Part shown: positions 27,026 to 60,238 of the stretch, in pieces
Layout: each line of letters opens with the position of its first letter
Numbering within the stretch: the first letter of the stretch is position 1
Assembly: GCF_025717515.1 (NCBI RefSeq)
Contig: NZ_JAJIRN010000006.1
Location: 372,001 to 436,000, forward strand
Reading direction: 5' to 3'
Length of the DNA stretch: 64,000 bases
DNA from: Roseateles oligotrophus
Lineage (GTDB): Bacteria; Pseudomonadota; Gammaproteobacteria; Burkholderiales; Burkholderiaceae_C
Notes under the pieces: generated by a model
Databases searched by the model: none
Seen by the model: the letters and a program-made list of their open reading frames with translations, nothing else
What the model was told of the DNA's origin: nothing
Program-made: the position numbers and the translations under genes

Positions 27026-27397
27026 TGGTGGAGCCGGGGGGAATTGAACCCCCGTCCGCAAGCCATCACCGGGCAGTTCTACATGCTTAGCCGTCTGATT
27101 TGAATCTCACGGTTGAATCGCGCAGTGGCACGCTATCCTTCCCGCCAGTCACTTGATCTTGTCCTGTACCTTGTAACCCGATGCAGAACCAGCCAATGTG
27201 TATGACTTCTCAGCCTTCAGCCTTGCGACTTAAGCCCGGCCCATTGGCCAACCGTTGAGAAGCTCACGCGCAATTAAGCGGCGAGTGCGAACGTAGAGTC
27301 GTTTGCAGTTACTTTGTTTCCAGTGGTTTTACGAGCGAACTGGTGCTCGGCATGCCCTACTCCGGATCCGCACCCACGTCGAAACCTGGTCGGCCCC
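27026..27397 (-). ncRNA. ssrA: Transfer-messenger RNA (tmRNA)
   Basis: Rescues stalled ribosomes together with SmpB. Read on the minus strand, the 5' end is GGGGCCGACCAGGTTTCGAC (from 27397) and the 3' end has a T-arm GGGGGTTCAATTCCCCC followed by GGCTCCACCA ending at 27026. The acceptor arms GGGGCCG and CGGCTCC pair with one G-U. The tag frame at 27274-27306 begins with a GCA resume codon and encodes ANDSTFALAA before TAA. This is a variant of the usual betaproteobacterial AND...ALAA tag. Length 372 nt with encoded CCA. It lies directly downstream of gph, with its promoter in the gph 3' end and a strong terminator at 26956-26995. Confidence 0.97.
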
Positions 27398-53698: not shown

Positions 53699-56600
53699 TC
53701 AGTCGTAGATGATTTGCGACACCGACCCCGGCTTGGCATCCTGTGTTGCGAGCCTGAGCTGAGCCAAGGCCTCATCGCAGGGCCAGAATCGGCTGTCTTC
53801 ACCCAACTCGATCTTGAACTCCGCACCCTCTTGCTCGCCAGACAAGAAATGGTGAGTGATCATTTTGAGGCCCTGCGCGACCTGACCCTGCTCGGTACTC
53901 GTCACGCGCGCCGGCCATTGCTTGATGACGTCTTGCAGCGCCGGCAGCTTGGCTCTCACCGGCACATAGAAATACTTGCCGAAGCGGGCGCGCGCACCGG
54001 CCAGGTCCCAGACCGCCTGCACATTGAAGCGAAAGCCCCCGGCGAAACGGTCCATCTGCACCTTGCCTTGCAGGATCAGCAACTCGTCATCGACCAACAA
54101 GTCCTTGTGCAAATTCAGCAGTTCCTCGTTGGCCACCGCCTCGATGAAATCGCTCTTGTCGTCAAGCTTGAAGATCGCCACACGGCCGCGATTGCCATTG
54201 ATGACGCGCAGATCGCTGACGATGCCGGCCAGCATCACCACCTCGCGGCTCTGCGCCGCATCCTCGATATTGGCGACCCGGCGCTTGACCATGCGGCGCA
54301 CTTCCTCGCCGCTCTGATCAAACAGATGGCCGCTCAGGTAATAACCGATCGCGGTCTTCTCCAGCGTCAGCCGCTCCTTGATGCTCCAGGGCGCGGCCTC
54401 GACCAGATCGGGCTCGGCGGTGCTCGACGCATGCGAGTCGCCAAAGTCGAACAGCCCGCCCTGATCGGCATTTGCTTCTTGCGTCTCCGCATGGGTGTAG
54501 CCGCGCGCCACGCTGGCCAGCAGGCGCGCCCGGTCGGGCTGCAGGGCGTCGAAGGCACCACCCTTGATCAAGGCATCAACCACCCGCTTGTTGACCGCCT
54601 TGCGGTCGATCCGGTTGCAGAAATCATAAAAACTCGTGAACGGGCCGCCGCTTGTGCGCACCGCCACGATTGACTCGATCGCGCCCTTGCCCGTGCCCTT
54701 GATCGCCCCAAGGCCGTAATTGACGCGCTTGCAGGGCTTGGTAGGCCCGGTCGTGGGCTGCCCGTCGTTGGGCAAGATTGGCGAGATCGGCTCGAACCGG
54801 TGCACACCGAGATTGACGTTAGGCGGCTCGAAATCGATGCCGAACAGCTTGGCATCATTCATCAAGACCTTGAGCTTCTCGGAGTCGTCGGCCTCGATGG
54901 TCATGTTGGCGGCGAAGAACTCGGCCGGGAAATAGGCCTTGAGCCAGGCCGTGTGATACGACAGCAAGGCATAGGCAGCCGCGTGCGACTTGTTGAAGCC
55001 GTAGCCCGCGAACTTCTCCATCAAGTCGAAGACTTCGTCGGCTTTTTCAGCGCTAATGTCCTTCTCGGCCGCGCCCTTGCGGAAGATGCCGCGATGCTCG
55101 GCCATCTCCTCGGCCTTTTTCTTGCCCATCGCCCGGCGCAGCATGTCCGCGCCGCCCAGGCTGTAGCCGCCCAGCACCTGGGCCGCCTGCATCACCTGTT
55201 CCTGGTAGACGAACACACCGTAGGTTTCCGCCAGCACCTGGCCCAACAGGGGATGCGGATACTCGATGACTTCCTTGCCATGCTTGCGCGCCACAAAAGA
55301 AGGGATCAGGTCCATTGGCCCGGGCCGATAGAGTGACACCAGCGCGATCAAGTCCTCGAAGCGCGAGGGCTTGGCGTCCTTGAGCAGGCGCTGCATGCCG
55401 GGCGATTCGAACTGGAACACGCTCTCCGAGTAACCGTCGCTGAAGAGCTTGAAGACCTTGCGGTCGTCCAGCGGCACGGTCTCCCATTTGAAATTCTTTT
55501 GCTCCGGGTAGCGGGCAATGATGAAATTCTTGGCCAACTCCAGAATCGTCAGCGTGGCCAGACCCAAAAAGTCGAACTTGACCAGGCCCACCGCCTCGAC
55601 GTCGTCCTTGTCGTATTGGCTGACCGCGCTGTTCGAGCCGGGCTGCTGGTATTGCGGGCAAAAGTCGGTGATCTTGCCGGGCGCAATCAACACGCCCCCG
55701 GCATGCATGCCGATATTGCGCACCATGCCTTCGACGCGGGCGGCCAGCTTGAGCAACTCGGCCACTTCTTCTTCCTGTGCCTCGCGCTGATCGATCTCGG
55801 GCGCCTCATGGCGCGCGTAGATCATCTTCTCCTTGGCCGGGTCGAAGTTCTCCGGCAGCTTGGCCAGCGTCACCGTCTTGCCGGGCGGCGCGGGGATCAG
55901 CTTGGCGATCGAGTCGACCTGGCCATAACCCATGCCCAGCACGCGGCCGATATCGCGCAGCGCCGCCTTGGCCGCCATGGTGCCGAAGGTCGCAATCTGG
56001 CTGACCGCCGGGCGGCCATATTTGTCCTTGACATAGTCGATGACGCGGTCGCGGTTGCCCTGGCAGAAGTCGATGTCAAAGTCGGGCATCGAGACCCGTT
56101 CCGGGTTCAAGAAGCGCTCGAACAGCAGGTTGTATTGCAGCGGGTCGAGGTCGGTGATCTTCAGCACATAAGCGACCAGGGAGCCCGCGCCCGAACCCCG
56201 GCCGGGCCCGACCGGGCAGCCATTGTTCTTGGCCCACCAGATGAAGTCCGACACGATCAAGAAGTAGCCCGGGAAGCCCATCTTCACAATCGTCTCGAGC
56301 TCGAACTCCAGGCGGGCGATGTAACGCGGCATCTGCTCGGCGCGCTTGTCCTCGTTCGGGTAGAGCAGCACCATCCGCTCTTTCAGCCCCTCATGCGATG
56401 CATAACGGAAATAATCATCGGGCGTCATCTTGACGCCGTCGACCAGCGGGGTCGGGAACTCCGGCAGCTGCGGCTTGCCCAGCACCAGGCTCAGGCTGCA
56501 GCGCCGCGCGATCTCCACCGTATTGGCAATCGCCGAGGGGATGTCGGCAAACAGCGCCTCCATCTCGGCCTGGCTGCGGAAAAACTGACCCGGCAAAAAG

Positions 56601-57289
56601 CGTTTGATGCGCTTGGGATTGGTCAGCGTCTCGCCTTCGGCCACGCAGACACGCGCCTCATGGGCCTCGAAGTCCTCGGTGCCCAAAAACTGCACCGGGT
56701 GGGTGGCGACGACCGGCAGCCCCAATTCGGCCGCGAAGGGCACGCTGGCCTGCACCAGCGCCTCTTGGCCGGCCAGCCCGGCGCGCTGCAGTTCGATGTA
56801 GAAGCGCTGCGGGAAGATCTCTTGAAAGCGCCCGGCCCAATCGAGCGCGCGCGGCTTGTCACCGGCCAGCAAGGCGGCACCCAGGCCGCCAAACTGCGCG
56901 CCCGACAGGCAGATCAAGCCTTCGTTCAACTCGCTCAGCCATTCCCATTTCATGCAGGCTTGGTTGCGCTGCACGTTTTGAATCCAGGCTCTTGAGAGCA
57001 GCTCGCACAGGTTCAGGTAACCCTGCTTGTTTTGCACCAGCAGCAAGAAACGGCTGGGGTTCTTGTCCGAGCCTTCCGGCTCCAGCCAGCAGTCGGCACC
57101 CAAAATGGGTTTGACGCCCTTCTTGCGCATGCCGCTGTAGAACTTGATGCCGCCAAAGAGGTTGGCCAGGTCGGTGATCGCGCAGGCGATTTGCCCGTCC
57201 TCGGCGGCCGCGGCGGCCGCGTCGTCGATTCTGAGGGTGCCGTCAACGACGGAGAATTCGGTGTGGGTGCGGAGGTGAACAAAGGCCAT
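53699..57289 (-). CDS. dnaE: DNA polymerase III subunit alpha
   Basis: Replicative polymerase, 1196 residues, DnaE1 type. N-terminal PHP domain (FVHLRTHTEFSVVDGTLRIDD), catalytic palm with MPDFDIDFCQGNRDRVIDYVKDKYG starting at residue 401, the finger/thumb region GYGFNKSHAAAYALLSYHTAWLKAYFPAEFFAANMT, a helix-hairpin-helix, an OB fold (VVMLAGIVSDLRVINGNRGRVAIFKLDD), and a C-terminal tau-binding part. The start at 57289 is the first ATG of the conserved N-terminus. Upstream begins the repeat island. Confidence 0.97.
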   Translation of the reverse strand: MAFVHLRTHTEFSVVDGTLRIDDAAAAAAEDGQIACAITDLANLFGGIKFYSGMRKKGVKPILGADCWLEPEGSDKNPSRFLLLVQNKQGYLNLCELLSRAWIQNVQRNQACMKWEWLSELNEGLICLSGAQFGGLGAALLAGDKPRALDWAGRFQEIFPQRFYIELQRAGLAGQEALVQASVPFAAELGLPVVATHPVQFLGTEDFEAHEARVCVAEGETLTNPKRIKRFLPGQFFRSQAEMEALFADIPSAIANTVEIARRCSLSLVLGKPQLPEFPTPLVDGVKMTPDDYFRYASHEGLKERMVLLYPNEDKRAEQMPRYIARLEFELETIVKMGFPGYFLIVSDFIWWAKNNGCPVGPGRGSGAGSLVAYVLKITDLDPLQYNLLFERFLNPERVSMPDFDIDFCQGNRDRVIDYVKDKYGRPAVSQIATFGTMAAKAALRDIGRVLGMGYGQVDSIAKLIPAPPGKTVTLAKLPENFDPAKEKMIYARHEAPEIDQREAQEEEVAELLKLAARVEGMVRNIGMHAGGVLIAPGKITDFCPQYQQPGSNSAVSQYDKDDVEAVGLVKFDFLGLATLTILELAKNFIIARYPEQKNFKWETVPLDDRKVFKLFSDGYSESVFQFESPGMQRLLKDAKPSRFEDLIALVSLYRPGPMDLIPSFVARKHGKEVIEYPHPLLGQVLAETYGVFVYQEQVMQAAQVLGGYSLGGADMLRRAMGKKKAEEMAEHRGIFRKGAAEKDISAEKADEVFDLMEKFAGYGFNKSHAAAYALLSYHTAWLKAYFPAEFFAANMTIEADDSEKLKVLMNDAKLFGIDFEPPNVNLGVHRFEPISPILPNDGQPTTGPTKPCKRVNYGLGAIKGTGKGAIESIVAVRTSGGPFTSFYDFCNRIDRKAVNKRVVDALIKGGAFDALQPDRARLLASVARGYTHAETQEANADQGGLFDFGDSHASSTAEPDLVEAAPWSIKERLTLEKTAIGYYLSGHLFDQSGEEVRRMVKRRVANIEDAAQSREVVMLAGIVSDLRVINGNRGRVAIFKLDDKSDFIEAVANEELLNLHKDLLVDDELLILQGKVQMDRFAGGFRFNVQAVWDLAGARARFGKYFYVPVRAKLPALQDVIKQWPARVTSTEQGQVAQGLKMITHHFLSGEQEGAEFKIELGEDSRFWPCDEALAQLRLATQDAKPGSVSQIIYD

Positions 57290-57394
57290 GGGCGTGATTG
57301 TAAGGAGGCATCATTTTTGCTCCGACTTTCGAGGCATGCACGGCGAATTCGCCGATGGTGGGTGCTGCTCGCTTCCGGCTGATTTGCTCTACCC

Positions 57395-57694
57395 GCACGA
57401 TGCCGGGAGTTCGCCCCGGCGGGCGACCCACTTCTCTTGCTTCGCCAAGAGAAGTGGGCAAGAGAAGGCGACCCTGCCGCATGGCCCTGCGGGTCCGCTC
57501 GGTGCTCAAATTTGCCGGGCCGCGCCCAACTCACTGCGCTACGCTCCGTTCAGACAAGGGGCGCGAAGCCAGTTCTTGAAGTCGCTGCGCGACGCCCGGC
57601 AAATTCTGCGCTCCTCGCCCATGCAGAAGGGGTTTCCCAAGAACACGGCTCGCTGCGCGTCGCCTTGATGGGTGCTGCGCTGCGCGCTGGCACC
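57395..57694 (-). repeat. Structured intergenic repeat, copy A (full length, inverted)
   Basis: About 300 bases, non-coding, near-identical in layout to copy C but in opposite orientation. Parts on the plus strand: a 13-bp perfect hairpin CCCACTTCTCTTG / CAAGAGAAGTGGG (57427-57439 and 57446-57458), a 97-bp core (57509-57605) closed by AATTTGCCGGGC and GCCCGGCAAATT, and a GC-rich hairpin near 57672-57694. Together with the neighbouring sequence it fills most of the 478-base gap upstream of dnaE. No transposase is nearby. Confidence 0.9.
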
Positions 57695-57713
57695 TCGAAG
57701 GTCGAAGGCTTCA

Positions 57714-57733
57714 GGGTCAAGTCTTGCCTATAT
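57714..57733 (+). repeat. 20-bp imperfect inverted repeat, left end of lipoprotein segment
   Basis: GGGTCAAGTCTTGCCTATAT. Its inverse recurs at 58363-58382 with 18 of 20 bases matching, on the other side of the lipoprotein gene. A further direct copy of its first 16 bases is at 59083-59098. TGAGACCTGACC follows at 57736-57747 and recurs inverted at 58601-58612. Confidence 0.85.
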
Positions 57734-57767
57734 TCTGAGACCTGACCTCGAGTGCCGCGCTAACTTG

Positions 57768-58301
57768 CTATTCCGCGCGCAATGCCAAATCAATGTGATG
57801 CGCAATGACAAACCATTCCGAGTCCATGCGTCGCCACACAATCAGGTAGGGTCGCCGCTGTTTTTCGCCATTGAGAGTGAGGTGGTACTGCCCGCCAAAC
57901 ACTTGAACCTCGCAATGGCTGCCAAAGCCGTAGAACAAGTCTTCGGTCTCGAAGCGTGCCCCCCGAGCTACCAACTGCTCTTGCAGGTACAGGCGTACCC
58001 AGGCGGGGCCTAGGTAGGAGATTTGTCCGCGGTTAGGCGCCACAACGATGGCATCCGGCGCATAGATCGCCAGCGCCTGATCCACATTCCCGGCATTCAG
58101 GGCAAGCAGCAACTTACGGTGGCGATTGAAGATTTCGAGCGTGCGGGCTTCTTCGAGCGAGCGGGCTTCATCAAAGCCTTCCACGCAAGAGGCGCTGGGG
58201 GGGGCTGCGGGGGCAACTGGGGTAGGCGGAGCCTGAACCGCGCAGCCTTGAATCAATAGTGCGCTGAGCGCCAGAGTGAAGGAAGAAGCTGTGAAGCGCA
58301 T
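57768..58301 (-). CDS. Small lipoprotein with SnoaL/NTF2-like domain
   Basis: 177 residues. A lipobox-like signal LALSALLIQGC at the N-terminus predicts outer- or inner-membrane lipidation at the Cys. A Pro/Ala-rich spacer and an NTF2/SnoaL-like fold follow (LEEARTLEIFNRHRKLLLALNAGNVDQALAIYAPDAIVVAPN and VFGGQYHLTLNGEKQRRPYLIVWRRMDSEWFVIAHHID). Enzymatic activity is unknown; such domains often bind small molecules. The gene is surrounded by repeats, bracketed at 57714-57733 and 58363-58382 by an inverted 20-mer, and stands alone on its strand. It may have been moved in as a unit. Confidence 0.8.
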   Translation of the reverse strand: MRFTASSFTLALSALLIQGCAVQAPPTPVAPAAPPSASCVEGFDEARSLEEARTLEIFNRHRKLLLALNAGNVDQALAIYAPDAIVVAPNRGQISYLGPAWVRLYLQEQLVARGARFETEDLFYGFGSHCEVQVFGGQYHLTLNGEKQRRPYLIVWRRMDSEWFVIAHHIDLALRAE

Positions 58302-58362
58302 AAATCTGAGTCTCCCGAGAGTTTGAGGACACGCCGCCGAAATTCGCCGTCATGTTTCAAAT

Positions 58363-58382
58363 ATATAGGCAAAACCTGACCC
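58363..58382 (-). repeat. 20-bp imperfect inverted repeat, right end of lipoprotein segment
   Basis: ATATAGGCAAAACCTGACCC, the inverse of 57714-57733 with two mismatches. It lies 61 bases upstream of the lipoprotein start codon, so the pair brackets the gene and its immediate promoter. Confidence 0.8.
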
Positions 58383-58401
58383 TCACTACAAAGACATACG
58401 A

Positions 58402-58590
58402 GGTGCATGCGCGCAGCGCATGCACCCATCGAGGCGATGCGCAGCGAGCCGAATTTATTGACCCCCCTTCTGCATGGGCGAGGAGCGGAGAATTTGCCGG
58501 GCGTCGCGCAGCGACTACAAGAACTGGCTACGCGCCCCTTGTTTGAACGGAGCGTAGCGCAGTGAGTTGGGCGCGGCCCGGCAAATTTGA
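58402..58590 (+). repeat. Structured intergenic repeat, copy B (truncated)
   Basis: Same orientation as copy C. It begins with a perfect 11-bp hairpin GGTGCATGCGC / GCGCATGCACC with loop GCA (58402-58426) and contains the complete 97-bp core with AATTTGCCGGGC at 58491-58502 and GCCCGGCAAATT at 58576-58587. It then stops; the GCGAAG-loop hairpin found in A and C is missing. Confidence 0.9.
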
Positions 58591-58594
58591 AAAA

Positions 58595-58675
58595 GGCCGG
58601 GGTCAGGTCTCAAACCCAAAGGCCTGCCGGCCTTTAGACGCTTCTTTTGCAAGCCGGAAAAAGCTGGCCCCGGCC
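58595..58675. repeat. Nested inverted repeats between copies B and C
   Basis: Outer arms GGCCGGGGTCAG (58595-58606) and CTGGCCCCGGCC (58664-58675) pair over 12 bases with one G-T wobble. Inside, AAAGGCC-TGCC-GGCCTTT (58618-58635) is a perfect hairpin. The unit starts 8 bases after the end of copy B's core and is unlike copies A to C. Confidence 0.75.
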
Positions 58676-58732
58676 GCAATGCTTACTTTCATTCTAAGCG
58701 GATATCCCGACACTCAAAGCACCGGCTTGAGC

Positions 58733-59035
58733 GGTGCTTGCGCGCAGCGCAGCACCCTTCGAGGCGACGCGCAGCGAGCCATGTTCTTGGGCGTTCCCCC
58801 CTTCTGCGTGGGCGAGGAGCGGAGAATTTGCCGGGCGTCGCGCAGCGACTTCAAGAACTGGCTTCGCGCCCCTTGTCTGAACGCAGCGTAGCGCAGTGAG
58901 TTGGGCGCGGCCCGGCAAATTTGAGCACCGAGCGGACCCGCAGGGCCATGCGGCAGGGTCGCCTTCTTTTGCTTACTTTTCTTGGCGAAGCAAGAAAAGT
59001 GAGTCGGCCGCCGGGCCGAACTCCCGGCATCGTGC
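58733..59035 (+). repeat. Structured intergenic repeat, copy C (full length)
   Basis: About 303 bases. GCA-loop hairpin (58733-58756, one bulge), 97-bp core with AATTTGCCGGGC at 58825-58836 and GCCCGGCAAATT at 58910-58921, then the GCGAAG-loop hairpin CTTACTTTTCTTG / CAAGAAAAGTGAG (58972-58984 and 58991-59003). Compared with copy A, two stem positions changed on both sides and one to a wobble, so pairing is kept. With copy B it fills most of the 887-base gap before the cyclophilin gene. Confidence 0.92.
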
Positions 59036-59082
59036 CGAACGAGCAGCAGCGCCAAGACGCGCCGGATAAAAAATTGACGAAG

Positions 59083-59098
59083 GGGTCAAGTCTTGCCT
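59083..59098 (+). repeat. Third copy of the GGGTCAAGTCTTGCCT motif
   Basis: Exact 16-base match to 57714-57729 in the same orientation, at the right edge of the repeat island, 90 bases before the cyclophilin start codon. Confidence 0.85.
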
Positions 59099-59188
59099 GC
59101 ATGTTCAATATCTAACCCCGGAAGGCCCGTCGCACCGGAAGCCACCCTGCAAAGGACGTATGCTGCCGCACCTGGAGAAGACCCCAAG

Positions 59189-60238
59189 ATGCCAACAAAA
59201 CTCACCCCCCTCATCACGCTGCTGAGCGCGGCCCTGCTGATCAGCACCGGCGCCGGCGCCACGACGACCCACAAAAATACGGCCAAGAAGACGCCGGCGC
59301 AAGCTTCGGCAACAGCGAAGAAGAAACCCGCCGGCAAGCCGGCAGTGGCACCCAAACCAGCGGCCACCGCCAAACCCATCCCCAAGCCACGCAGCGGGGC
59401 CGAAATTCTGGCGCAGTCCCCGGACAGCCACTGGCGCGGGCTTGACCCCGAGAACACCTTGCTGATGGAACTGCCGCAGGGCCAGACCAAGGGTCAGGTC
59501 TTGATCGAACTGGCACCGCGCTTCGCGCCGCTGCATACGCTCAATATCCGCGCGCTGGCCCACGGCGGCTACTACGACGGCTTGGCCGTCGTGCGCGTGC
59601 AAGACAACTTCGTCACCCAATGGGGCGACCCCAATGCCGACGACACCGCGCTGGCCAAGCCCTTGGGCGCCGCCGCCCCCAAACTACCGGCCGAATTCTC
59701 GATTCCGCTGAAAGACCTGCCGCTCGCCCGCCTGCCCGATCTGGACGGCTGGGCGCCGGTAACGGGTTTCGTCGACGGCTTCTCCGTCGCCGCCGACCCC
59801 AAGACCGGCCGGGCCTGGCTCGCGCATTGTTATGGGGCGGTAGGTGCCGGCCGCAGCGATGCGGTCGACTCCAGCACCGGCGCGGAGCTGTATGCGGTGA
59901 TTGGCCAAGCGCCACGTGGCTTGGACCTGAACATCACCCTGGTCGGGCGCGTGCTGAAGGGGATCGAGTTGCTGGCCAGCCTGCAGCGTGGCGGGCCGAA
60001 TATGGGTTTTTACGAGCAAGCCGAGCAACGCCAGCCGATCCAGCGCGTTCGACTGCTGGCCGATATGCCGCTCGAGGATCGCCCTGCCCTGCAGGTGCTG
60101 CGCACCGACAGCAACACCTGGACCGAACTGCTGGCCTCAAGGCGCAACCGTGGCGGCTGGTTTGTGCACAATCCCAATCATGTCGATCTGTGCGGCATCA
60201 CCCCGCCGACCCGGCCGGCCCCGACGACCAAGCAGTAG
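59189..60238 (+). CDS. Cyclophilin-type peptidyl-prolyl isomerase, exported
   Basis: 349 residues from the ATG at 59189, preceded by GGAGAAG; the open frame upstream to 59093 lies in the repeat island and is unlikely. Signal peptide MPTKLTPLITLLSAALLISTGAGA, then a Lys/Ala/Pro-rich linker (about 25-70), then a cyclophilin domain (GQVLIELAPRFAPLHTLNIRALAHGGYYDGLAVVRVQDNFVTQWGDP; RAWLAHCYGAVGAGRSDAVDSSTGAELYAVIGQAPRGLDLNITLVGRVLKGIELLASL). It would assist folding in the periplasm. The usual substrate-loop Arg/Phe pattern is altered (VVRVQDNFVTQWGD), so isomerase activity is not assured. It ends in six consecutive in-frame TAG codons. Confidence 0.85.
   Translation: MPTKLTPLITLLSAALLISTGAGATTTHKNTAKKTPAQASATAKKKPAGKPAVAPKPAATAKPIPKPRSGAEILAQSPDSHWRGLDPENTLLMELPQGQTKGQVLIELAPRFAPLHTLNIRALAHGGYYDGLAVVRVQDNFVTQWGDPNADDTALAKPLGAAAPKLPAEFSIPLKDLPLARLPDLDGWAPVTGFVDGFSVAADPKTGRAWLAHCYGAVGAGRSDAVDSSTGAELYAVIGQAPRGLDLNITLVGRVLKGIELLASLQRGGPNMGFYEQAEQRQPIQRVRLLADMPLEDRPALQVLRTDSNTWTELLASRRNRGGWFVHNPNHVDLCGITPPTRPAPTTKQ

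Follow-up and report, generated by a model that had tools for sequence, protein, structure and literature searches.

Here we report a single repeat type that, as judged from sequence comparison, bounds slots for foreign genes at fixed sites in Paucibacter/Roseateles; the sites are kept while the gene in the slot varies and sometimes belongs to virus defence. We favour an explanation in which inverted arms of structured RNA, or of an RNA-like fold, act at these fixed sites as homology anchors for cargo exchange, and we give it a probability of somewhat under 60%. The support for the arms comes from their outward pairs, common sites, cargo that differs and is low in GC, recombination between arms, and covarying structure.

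The window, by which we mean the whole 64,000-nucleotide stretch of Roseateles oligotrophus DNA that was analysed, contains one unit of arm, gene and arm, with the arms pointing away from the gene, and one extra arm (Table 1). A preliminary description had reported three copies (A, B and C) of one layout around a fixed 97-bp core with common 12-base ends. The cores are indeed 97 nt each with identical ends, and the coordinates of all three were as claimed. The hairpin layout was also recovered, A and C carrying both the GCA-loop and the GCGAAG-loop hairpins and B carrying the core and the GCA hairpin without outer hairpins, and no transposase is present in the window element. The parts of the common layout were therefore correct, whereas the common orientation was not, since A is inverted relative to B and C (reverse complement). 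The strong similarity reported for the inner core bases holds once A is flipped, when its core matches C at 96/97 and B at 94/97 positions, as compared with only 47/97 positions for unflipped A and C. The gene between A and B had been overlooked, as had the fact that A and B/C flank it on either side within a single gene-bearing unit.

Table 1. Features of the arm-bounded unit and of its flanks in the window
Feature	Coordinates	Strand	Basis and remarks
Left neighbour (flank, outside the element): dnaE-type DNA polymerase III alpha gene	53699..57289	-	Pfam
Left arm, copy A, outward-facing	57395..57694	-	Inverted match to C, 248 nt, 94% complementary; motif positions
Outer end of A, GCACGATGCCGGG	at 57395	-	Motif positions
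GCGAAG-loop hairpin of A	57429..57458		
A core, 97 nt	57509..57605	-	In the consensus fold, one closing helix plus two inner hairpins; 12-base ends at motif positions 57509/57605
GCA-loop inner hairpin of A	57670..57694		
Inner-end inverted doublet GGGTCAAGTCT...AGACCTGACC, cargo side of A	57714..57747	none	
Cargo gene, 177 aa, DUF4440/SnoaL-like	57768..58301	-	Pfam PF14534, E 1.5e-6, over cut-off
Inner-end remnant ATATAGGCAAAACCTGACCC, cargo side of B	58363..58382	none	
Right arm B, truncated past its core	58402..58590	+	129 nt at 96% to C; core 58491-58587 (12-base ends at 58491/58587)
GCA-loop inner hairpin of B	58402..58426		
Boundary remnant of an earlier cargo, B-C spacer	58591..58732	+	79-84% identity to the cargo-side ends of four arms
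Right arm C, complete	58733..59035	+	Core 58825-58921 (12-base ends at 58825/58921); outer hairpins 58975-59000 and 59010-59028
GCA-loop inner hairpin of C	58733..58756		
GCGAAG-loop hairpin of C	58975..59000		
Right neighbour (flank, outside the element): cyclophilin-type peptidyl-prolyl isomerase gene	59189..60238	+	Pfam PF00160

The SnoaL_2 match of the cargo protein in this slot falls just below the Pfam cut-off, and its start reads, by eye, as a lipoprotein-like leader. Among the other genomes of the genus the protein had no match except for a weak one (29%) in genome G006. The B-C spacer of 142 bp resembles the cargo-side ends of other arms (L038, L017, L041, and L042), and C therefore retains the boundary of an earlier cargo. 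Thus, the present cargo and the truncated arm B were joined onto the boundary remnant beside C. Elsewhere in the window, a tmRNA gene with the tag ANDSTFALAA is located on the minus strand at 27026-27397.

Outward pairing extends to the other copies of the repeat. In a set of 117 arms, from which split pieces, short fragments, and the window copy B were excluded, the neighbouring pairs less than 2.5 kb apart are outward without exception (46/46) and 25 arms are unpaired; counting B in adds B-C as one ++ neighbour. The arms are GC-rich and about 270-300 nt long. In genomes G000, G001, G003, G005, and G012, the gap between paired arms is 460-2182 bp for 19 pairs and there is none for 2, and in G004, G007, G009, G015, and G017 it is 18-226 bp, including near-empty palindromes with centres of 18-164 bp in the first four of these. 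The gap sizes thus define two forms, an empty palindromic form of about 600 bp and a cargo-bearing form. The GC content of the cargo was lower than that of the flanks in 19 of the 19 measured cases, by 11 points on average.

A search with the arm as a query returned 17 matching places in its own genome, the second-best copy having an E-value of 7.9e-125, far above chance. Matches were obtained in 14/17 relatives from the same genus and in 22/39 genomes overall, the own genome counted, as well as in at least 27 of 250 genomes drawn from the family, which is a lower bound because three candidates were scored per genome. These counts bear out the earlier proposal of a dispersed, structured, and non-autonomous repeat family. 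Exact matches to the core pattern in named contigs comprised 33 stretches, all labelled Paucibacter or Roseateles. A closer look at eight of the family genomes gave, on a reading of the list, eight pairs of neighbouring arms spread over four genomes from other genera; every pair is outward, and three are palindromes of about 600 bp. In G022, from another genus, 264-nt arms at L171:1595-2570 are 92.8% complementary with 449 bp between them. Carriage by phages or plasmids was rejected: the phage collection had no arm match, the plasmid records had just fragments (in 3 of 72,556, with no more than 24% of the query covered), and the viral contigs had no exact match to the core pattern. The outer hairpins of the window (58955-59035, query positions about 219-294) match without the core in other genera and in families of other orders, and may therefore represent an older and wider repeat.

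The arms fold into a common structure. For 27 arms, the consensus fold of the outward strand scored -101.9 with a covariation of 2.76, as compared with -83.4 and 0.00 for the other strand, and its core consists of a closing helix and a pair of inner hairpins. When the fold was tested on 48 arms outside the derivation set, 93% of cells were paired, with 176 G-U vs 4 A-C cells. When these 48 arms were aligned separately together with one reference arm, 28 pairs changed on both sides, 10/13 pairs of the core closing helix showed such two-sided changes, and the covariation was 0.227 vs 0.110 after shuffling (0/500) and at most 0.054 when the fold was slid; one of five covariation measures, the number of further pair types, was not above the shuffles (67 vs 65.1, 127/500). 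One-sided changes in stems were C>U (60) and A>G (24) vs G>A (4) and U>C (0), whereas loops had C>U (56) and G>A (107), and plain mutational bias is no explanation for such different spectra. The fold derived from the other strand, read in its own letters, had 126 G-U and 74 A-C cells, a comparison in which folding the outward strand itself favours G-U somewhat; the 42 pairs common to the folds of both strands hold just 5 G-U and 0 A-C cells, too few to decide. Rfam covariance models had no match in 57300-59150 up to E 1. From the aligned sequences, the arms are a covarying structure with apparent selection on the outward strand, and an arm would act as RNA or as a strand-specific fold of single-strand DNA, both of which fit equally here.

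The sites were compared using one genome per species, with cargo names from Pfam and PADLOC that are at the annotation level. Site I has a radical-SAM/BATS (biotin-synthase-like) gene on one side and a biotin-carboxylase gene on the other; it is occupied in six genomes, with flanks that are mostly 79-92% identical. One insert encodes a 119-aa protein, one has 460 bp in which no ORF reaches 80 aa, and three encode a 173-aa protein, an Ivy-like protein, and a 237-aa protein, whereas the sixth genome has an empty palindrome. After trimming 100 nt per end, the five inserts had nothing in common at E 1e-3; a 16-nt motif close to one edge is common to three of them. At site II, the window site, four species carry three cargos, one of them the DUF4440 gene described above. 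The inserts of G003 and G005, which are 89% identical, encode another protein (248 and 274 aa). G001 carries the defence reverse transcriptase Drt9 (PADLOC E 2.8e-206) next to an arm, and the orthologous isomerase region (79.7% over 2.66 kb) follows this arm; here the site is represented by its isomerase side only, with the other end lost at the contig end. The dnaE and isomerase genes adjoin without an element in six genomes (G002, G006, G008, G011, G012, and G013), and in G004, G007, G009, and G010 the fetched stretch has no arm and the two genes are not adjacent there.

Other sites are similarly diverse in content. Site III contains GNAT and tautomerase genes, a DUF4326 protein with others, or a bSEFIR TIR protein (PADLOC E 1.4e-76) with a 114-aa protein. 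Site VII contains either an insert whose attC match is short or a candidate defence protein, PDC-S14 (E 1.3e-105), with one flank aligned over 1466 nt and the other over 66 nt only. Two inserts at site VI have 192 nt in common at one edge. The empty site of G003/G005 and several empty sites of G004, G007, G009, and G015 hold no cargo at all, and at some sites both of the compared species are empty. A defence annotation is missing from most cargo proteins, and Pfam found no transposase or integrase among 19 proteins of 16/19 cargos (L011, L030, and L032 being left out). As far as the alignments go, the flanks are orthologous while the cargo varies across species at one site. As a part of the whole arm and slot explanation, and with the probability given to it, we consider the sites to be old and inherited with the chromosome, and the slot gene to be foreign and replaced now and then. 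In G001, a HipA-type gene adjoins an arm and a ribonucleotide reductase gene (L176:137-1516).

Recombination among arms was evident in the set of 27, where 978/2145 pairs of informative sites are incompatible. A phi-type statistic, calculated for these arms with an analysis-specific script, was 0.366 vs 0.455 (p 0.0005), with fewer incompatibilities between neighbouring sites, and an insertion variant and a hairpin variant are present in all four combinations. By fifths of the arm, the identities of same-site/different-site arms were 0.916/0.894, 0.935/0.938, 0.929/0.927, 0.940/0.934, and 0.853/0.823. Residual site identity is confined to the innermost (p 0.017) and outermost (p 0.040) fifths, with p values uncorrected, and in the middle three fifths same-site arms are no closer than different-site arms. 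The site identity of the innermost fifth runs against a pure swap of cargo, which ought to erase that part first. The simple proposal that arms stay and cargo alone moves was not fully borne out, because arm identity tracks the site only weakly.

In the favoured explanation, each arm would be a conserved structured RNA of about 270-300 nt, or a strand-specific fold of single-strand DNA, that reads outward, and two inverted arms would bound one cargo slot. The content of the slot would be replaced by homologous recombination between similar arms, either from other sites or from the DNA of other strains. The arms would be transcribed and may help cargo expression; as both arms of a slot read outward, a sense arm would follow the cargo gene whichever way it points, which might serve transcript ending or stability. 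The window would carry the trace of such an event in the order A, cargo, B, boundary remnant of the earlier cargo, and C. The attC sites in 4/19 cargos suggest an integron as one source of cargo. Counted against exchange are the presence of one and the same site II cargo in G003 and G005, the sites that are empty in both species, and the 16-nt motif common to three site I inserts. A related, doubtful possibility is gene capture by an element whose arm RNA, or its single strand or cDNA, is active, the RNAs of a pair recruiting accessory and defence genes to fixed chromosomal sites or holding them there; in that case, the palindrome centre would correspond to RNA 5' ends, the geometry expected of a self-primed (snap-back) RNA copy.

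The fixed outward orientation of the two ends, the many dispersed copies, and the sites filled in some species and empty in others, such as the six genomes with adjacent dnaE and isomerase genes, would also be expected of a non-autonomous transposon with long terminal inverted repeats, either a MITE or a cargo-bearing insertion cassette, mobilised by a transposase in trans with the cargo carried along. However, the occupation of identical positions in several species by different cargo, the strand-specific structural selection, and the lack of a transposase among the scanned cargo proteins make such an origin unlikely; furthermore, no target duplication was seen by eye in the outer flanks of copies that may be old, and the arms far exceed the 4-30 bp usual for MITE ends in the consulted portion of PMC10969869. 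A chromosomal integron integrase could instead insert attC cassettes into the arms as side-sites. One cargo attC is 95% identical to the G003 integron array and an arm fragment adjoins intI in the own genome, whereas 15/19 cargos have no attC by the model used (the match in L011, one of the four with attC, is a short one) and G008 has intI but no arm match, so that we find this origin very improbable. An integron as the sole mover was rejected on the attC count. At the end of contig 53 of the own genome (L014:4045-6339), an integron integrase gene, an arm fragment, a ribonucleotide reductase gene, a GNAT cassette, and attC occur together.

Long palindromes are unstable, and the slots could have been filled when a palindrome centre was cut at replication, the break captured foreign DNA, and the insert stabilised the palindrome as a spacer. 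The near-empty palindromes described above agree with such breakage, as does the start of the site I cargo where the palindrome arm stops, at one short sequence in most arms. Nevertheless, the arms of the window group each have their own inner hairpin and boundary sequence and are not halves of one centre, and the selection on the outward strand is left unaccounted for, which leaves breakage as a rather improbable origin.

The arms add a large covarying family of putative RNAs without an Rfam match here. In practical terms, accessory and defence genes carried as single-gene cargo can be found simply by looking between outward arm pairs in these genomes. The element also raises a testable question of how solitary foreign genes swap at one position without a recombinase in the unit. 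Among the open-licence papers listed in literature searches, no title or abstract opening described such an element.

Cargo-bearing insertion cassettes are non-autonomous and have inverted ends. The repeat resembles MITEs in being non-autonomous, structured, and dispersed in intergenic copies with inverted ends. MITEs are, in the same portion of PMC10969869, shorter than 500 bp with terminal inverted repeats of 4-30 bp, whereas the palindromes here are about 600 bp with arms of about 270-300 nt; the arms are also GC-rich, have a covarying strand-specific fold, and bound differing cargo at shared sites. The MITE or REP membership proposed in the preliminary description was not upheld, given arms of about 300 bp, their GC richness, positions common to species, and the lack of an arm in 13 stretches around RAYT genes from six same-genus genomes, of which two had only 19-20-nt matches. 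RAYT-type genes are present in 18/18 same-genus genomes whatever the arm count, and the REP/RAYT system was rejected. In PMC2817692, a RAYT gene is flanked by two inverted copies of a repeat, and REPs are imperfect palindromes with compensated changes. The arms resemble REP doublets in being imperfect palindromes that come in inverted pairs and whose changes are compensated, and differ from them in being much longer, few per genome (17 matches in the own genome), and absent beside the sampled RAYT genes. Doublets of a GGTCAGGTCT / GGGTCAGGTCTTG-like motif occur at many inner arm ends, and the motif is also present near several RAYT loci; in the window, this 13-mer motif has 14 matches vs 1.25 expected with up to 2 mismatches. 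Autonomous transposons and IS elements encode a transposase, in contrast to the unit as scanned here. With integrons and cassettes located away from an integrase, the repeat shares single small accessory genes, fixed chromosomal positions, and attC in some cargos; in contrast, its boundaries are inverted structured arms, the scanned cargo has no integrase, and most cargos have no attC. Finally, defence hotspots in phages, satellites, and transposons have varying accessory or defence genes at one position, according to the consulted parts of PMC9122126 and PMC8649781; those hotspots are located in mobile elements, whereas here a repeat of probable structured RNA bounds slots at many chromosomal sites.
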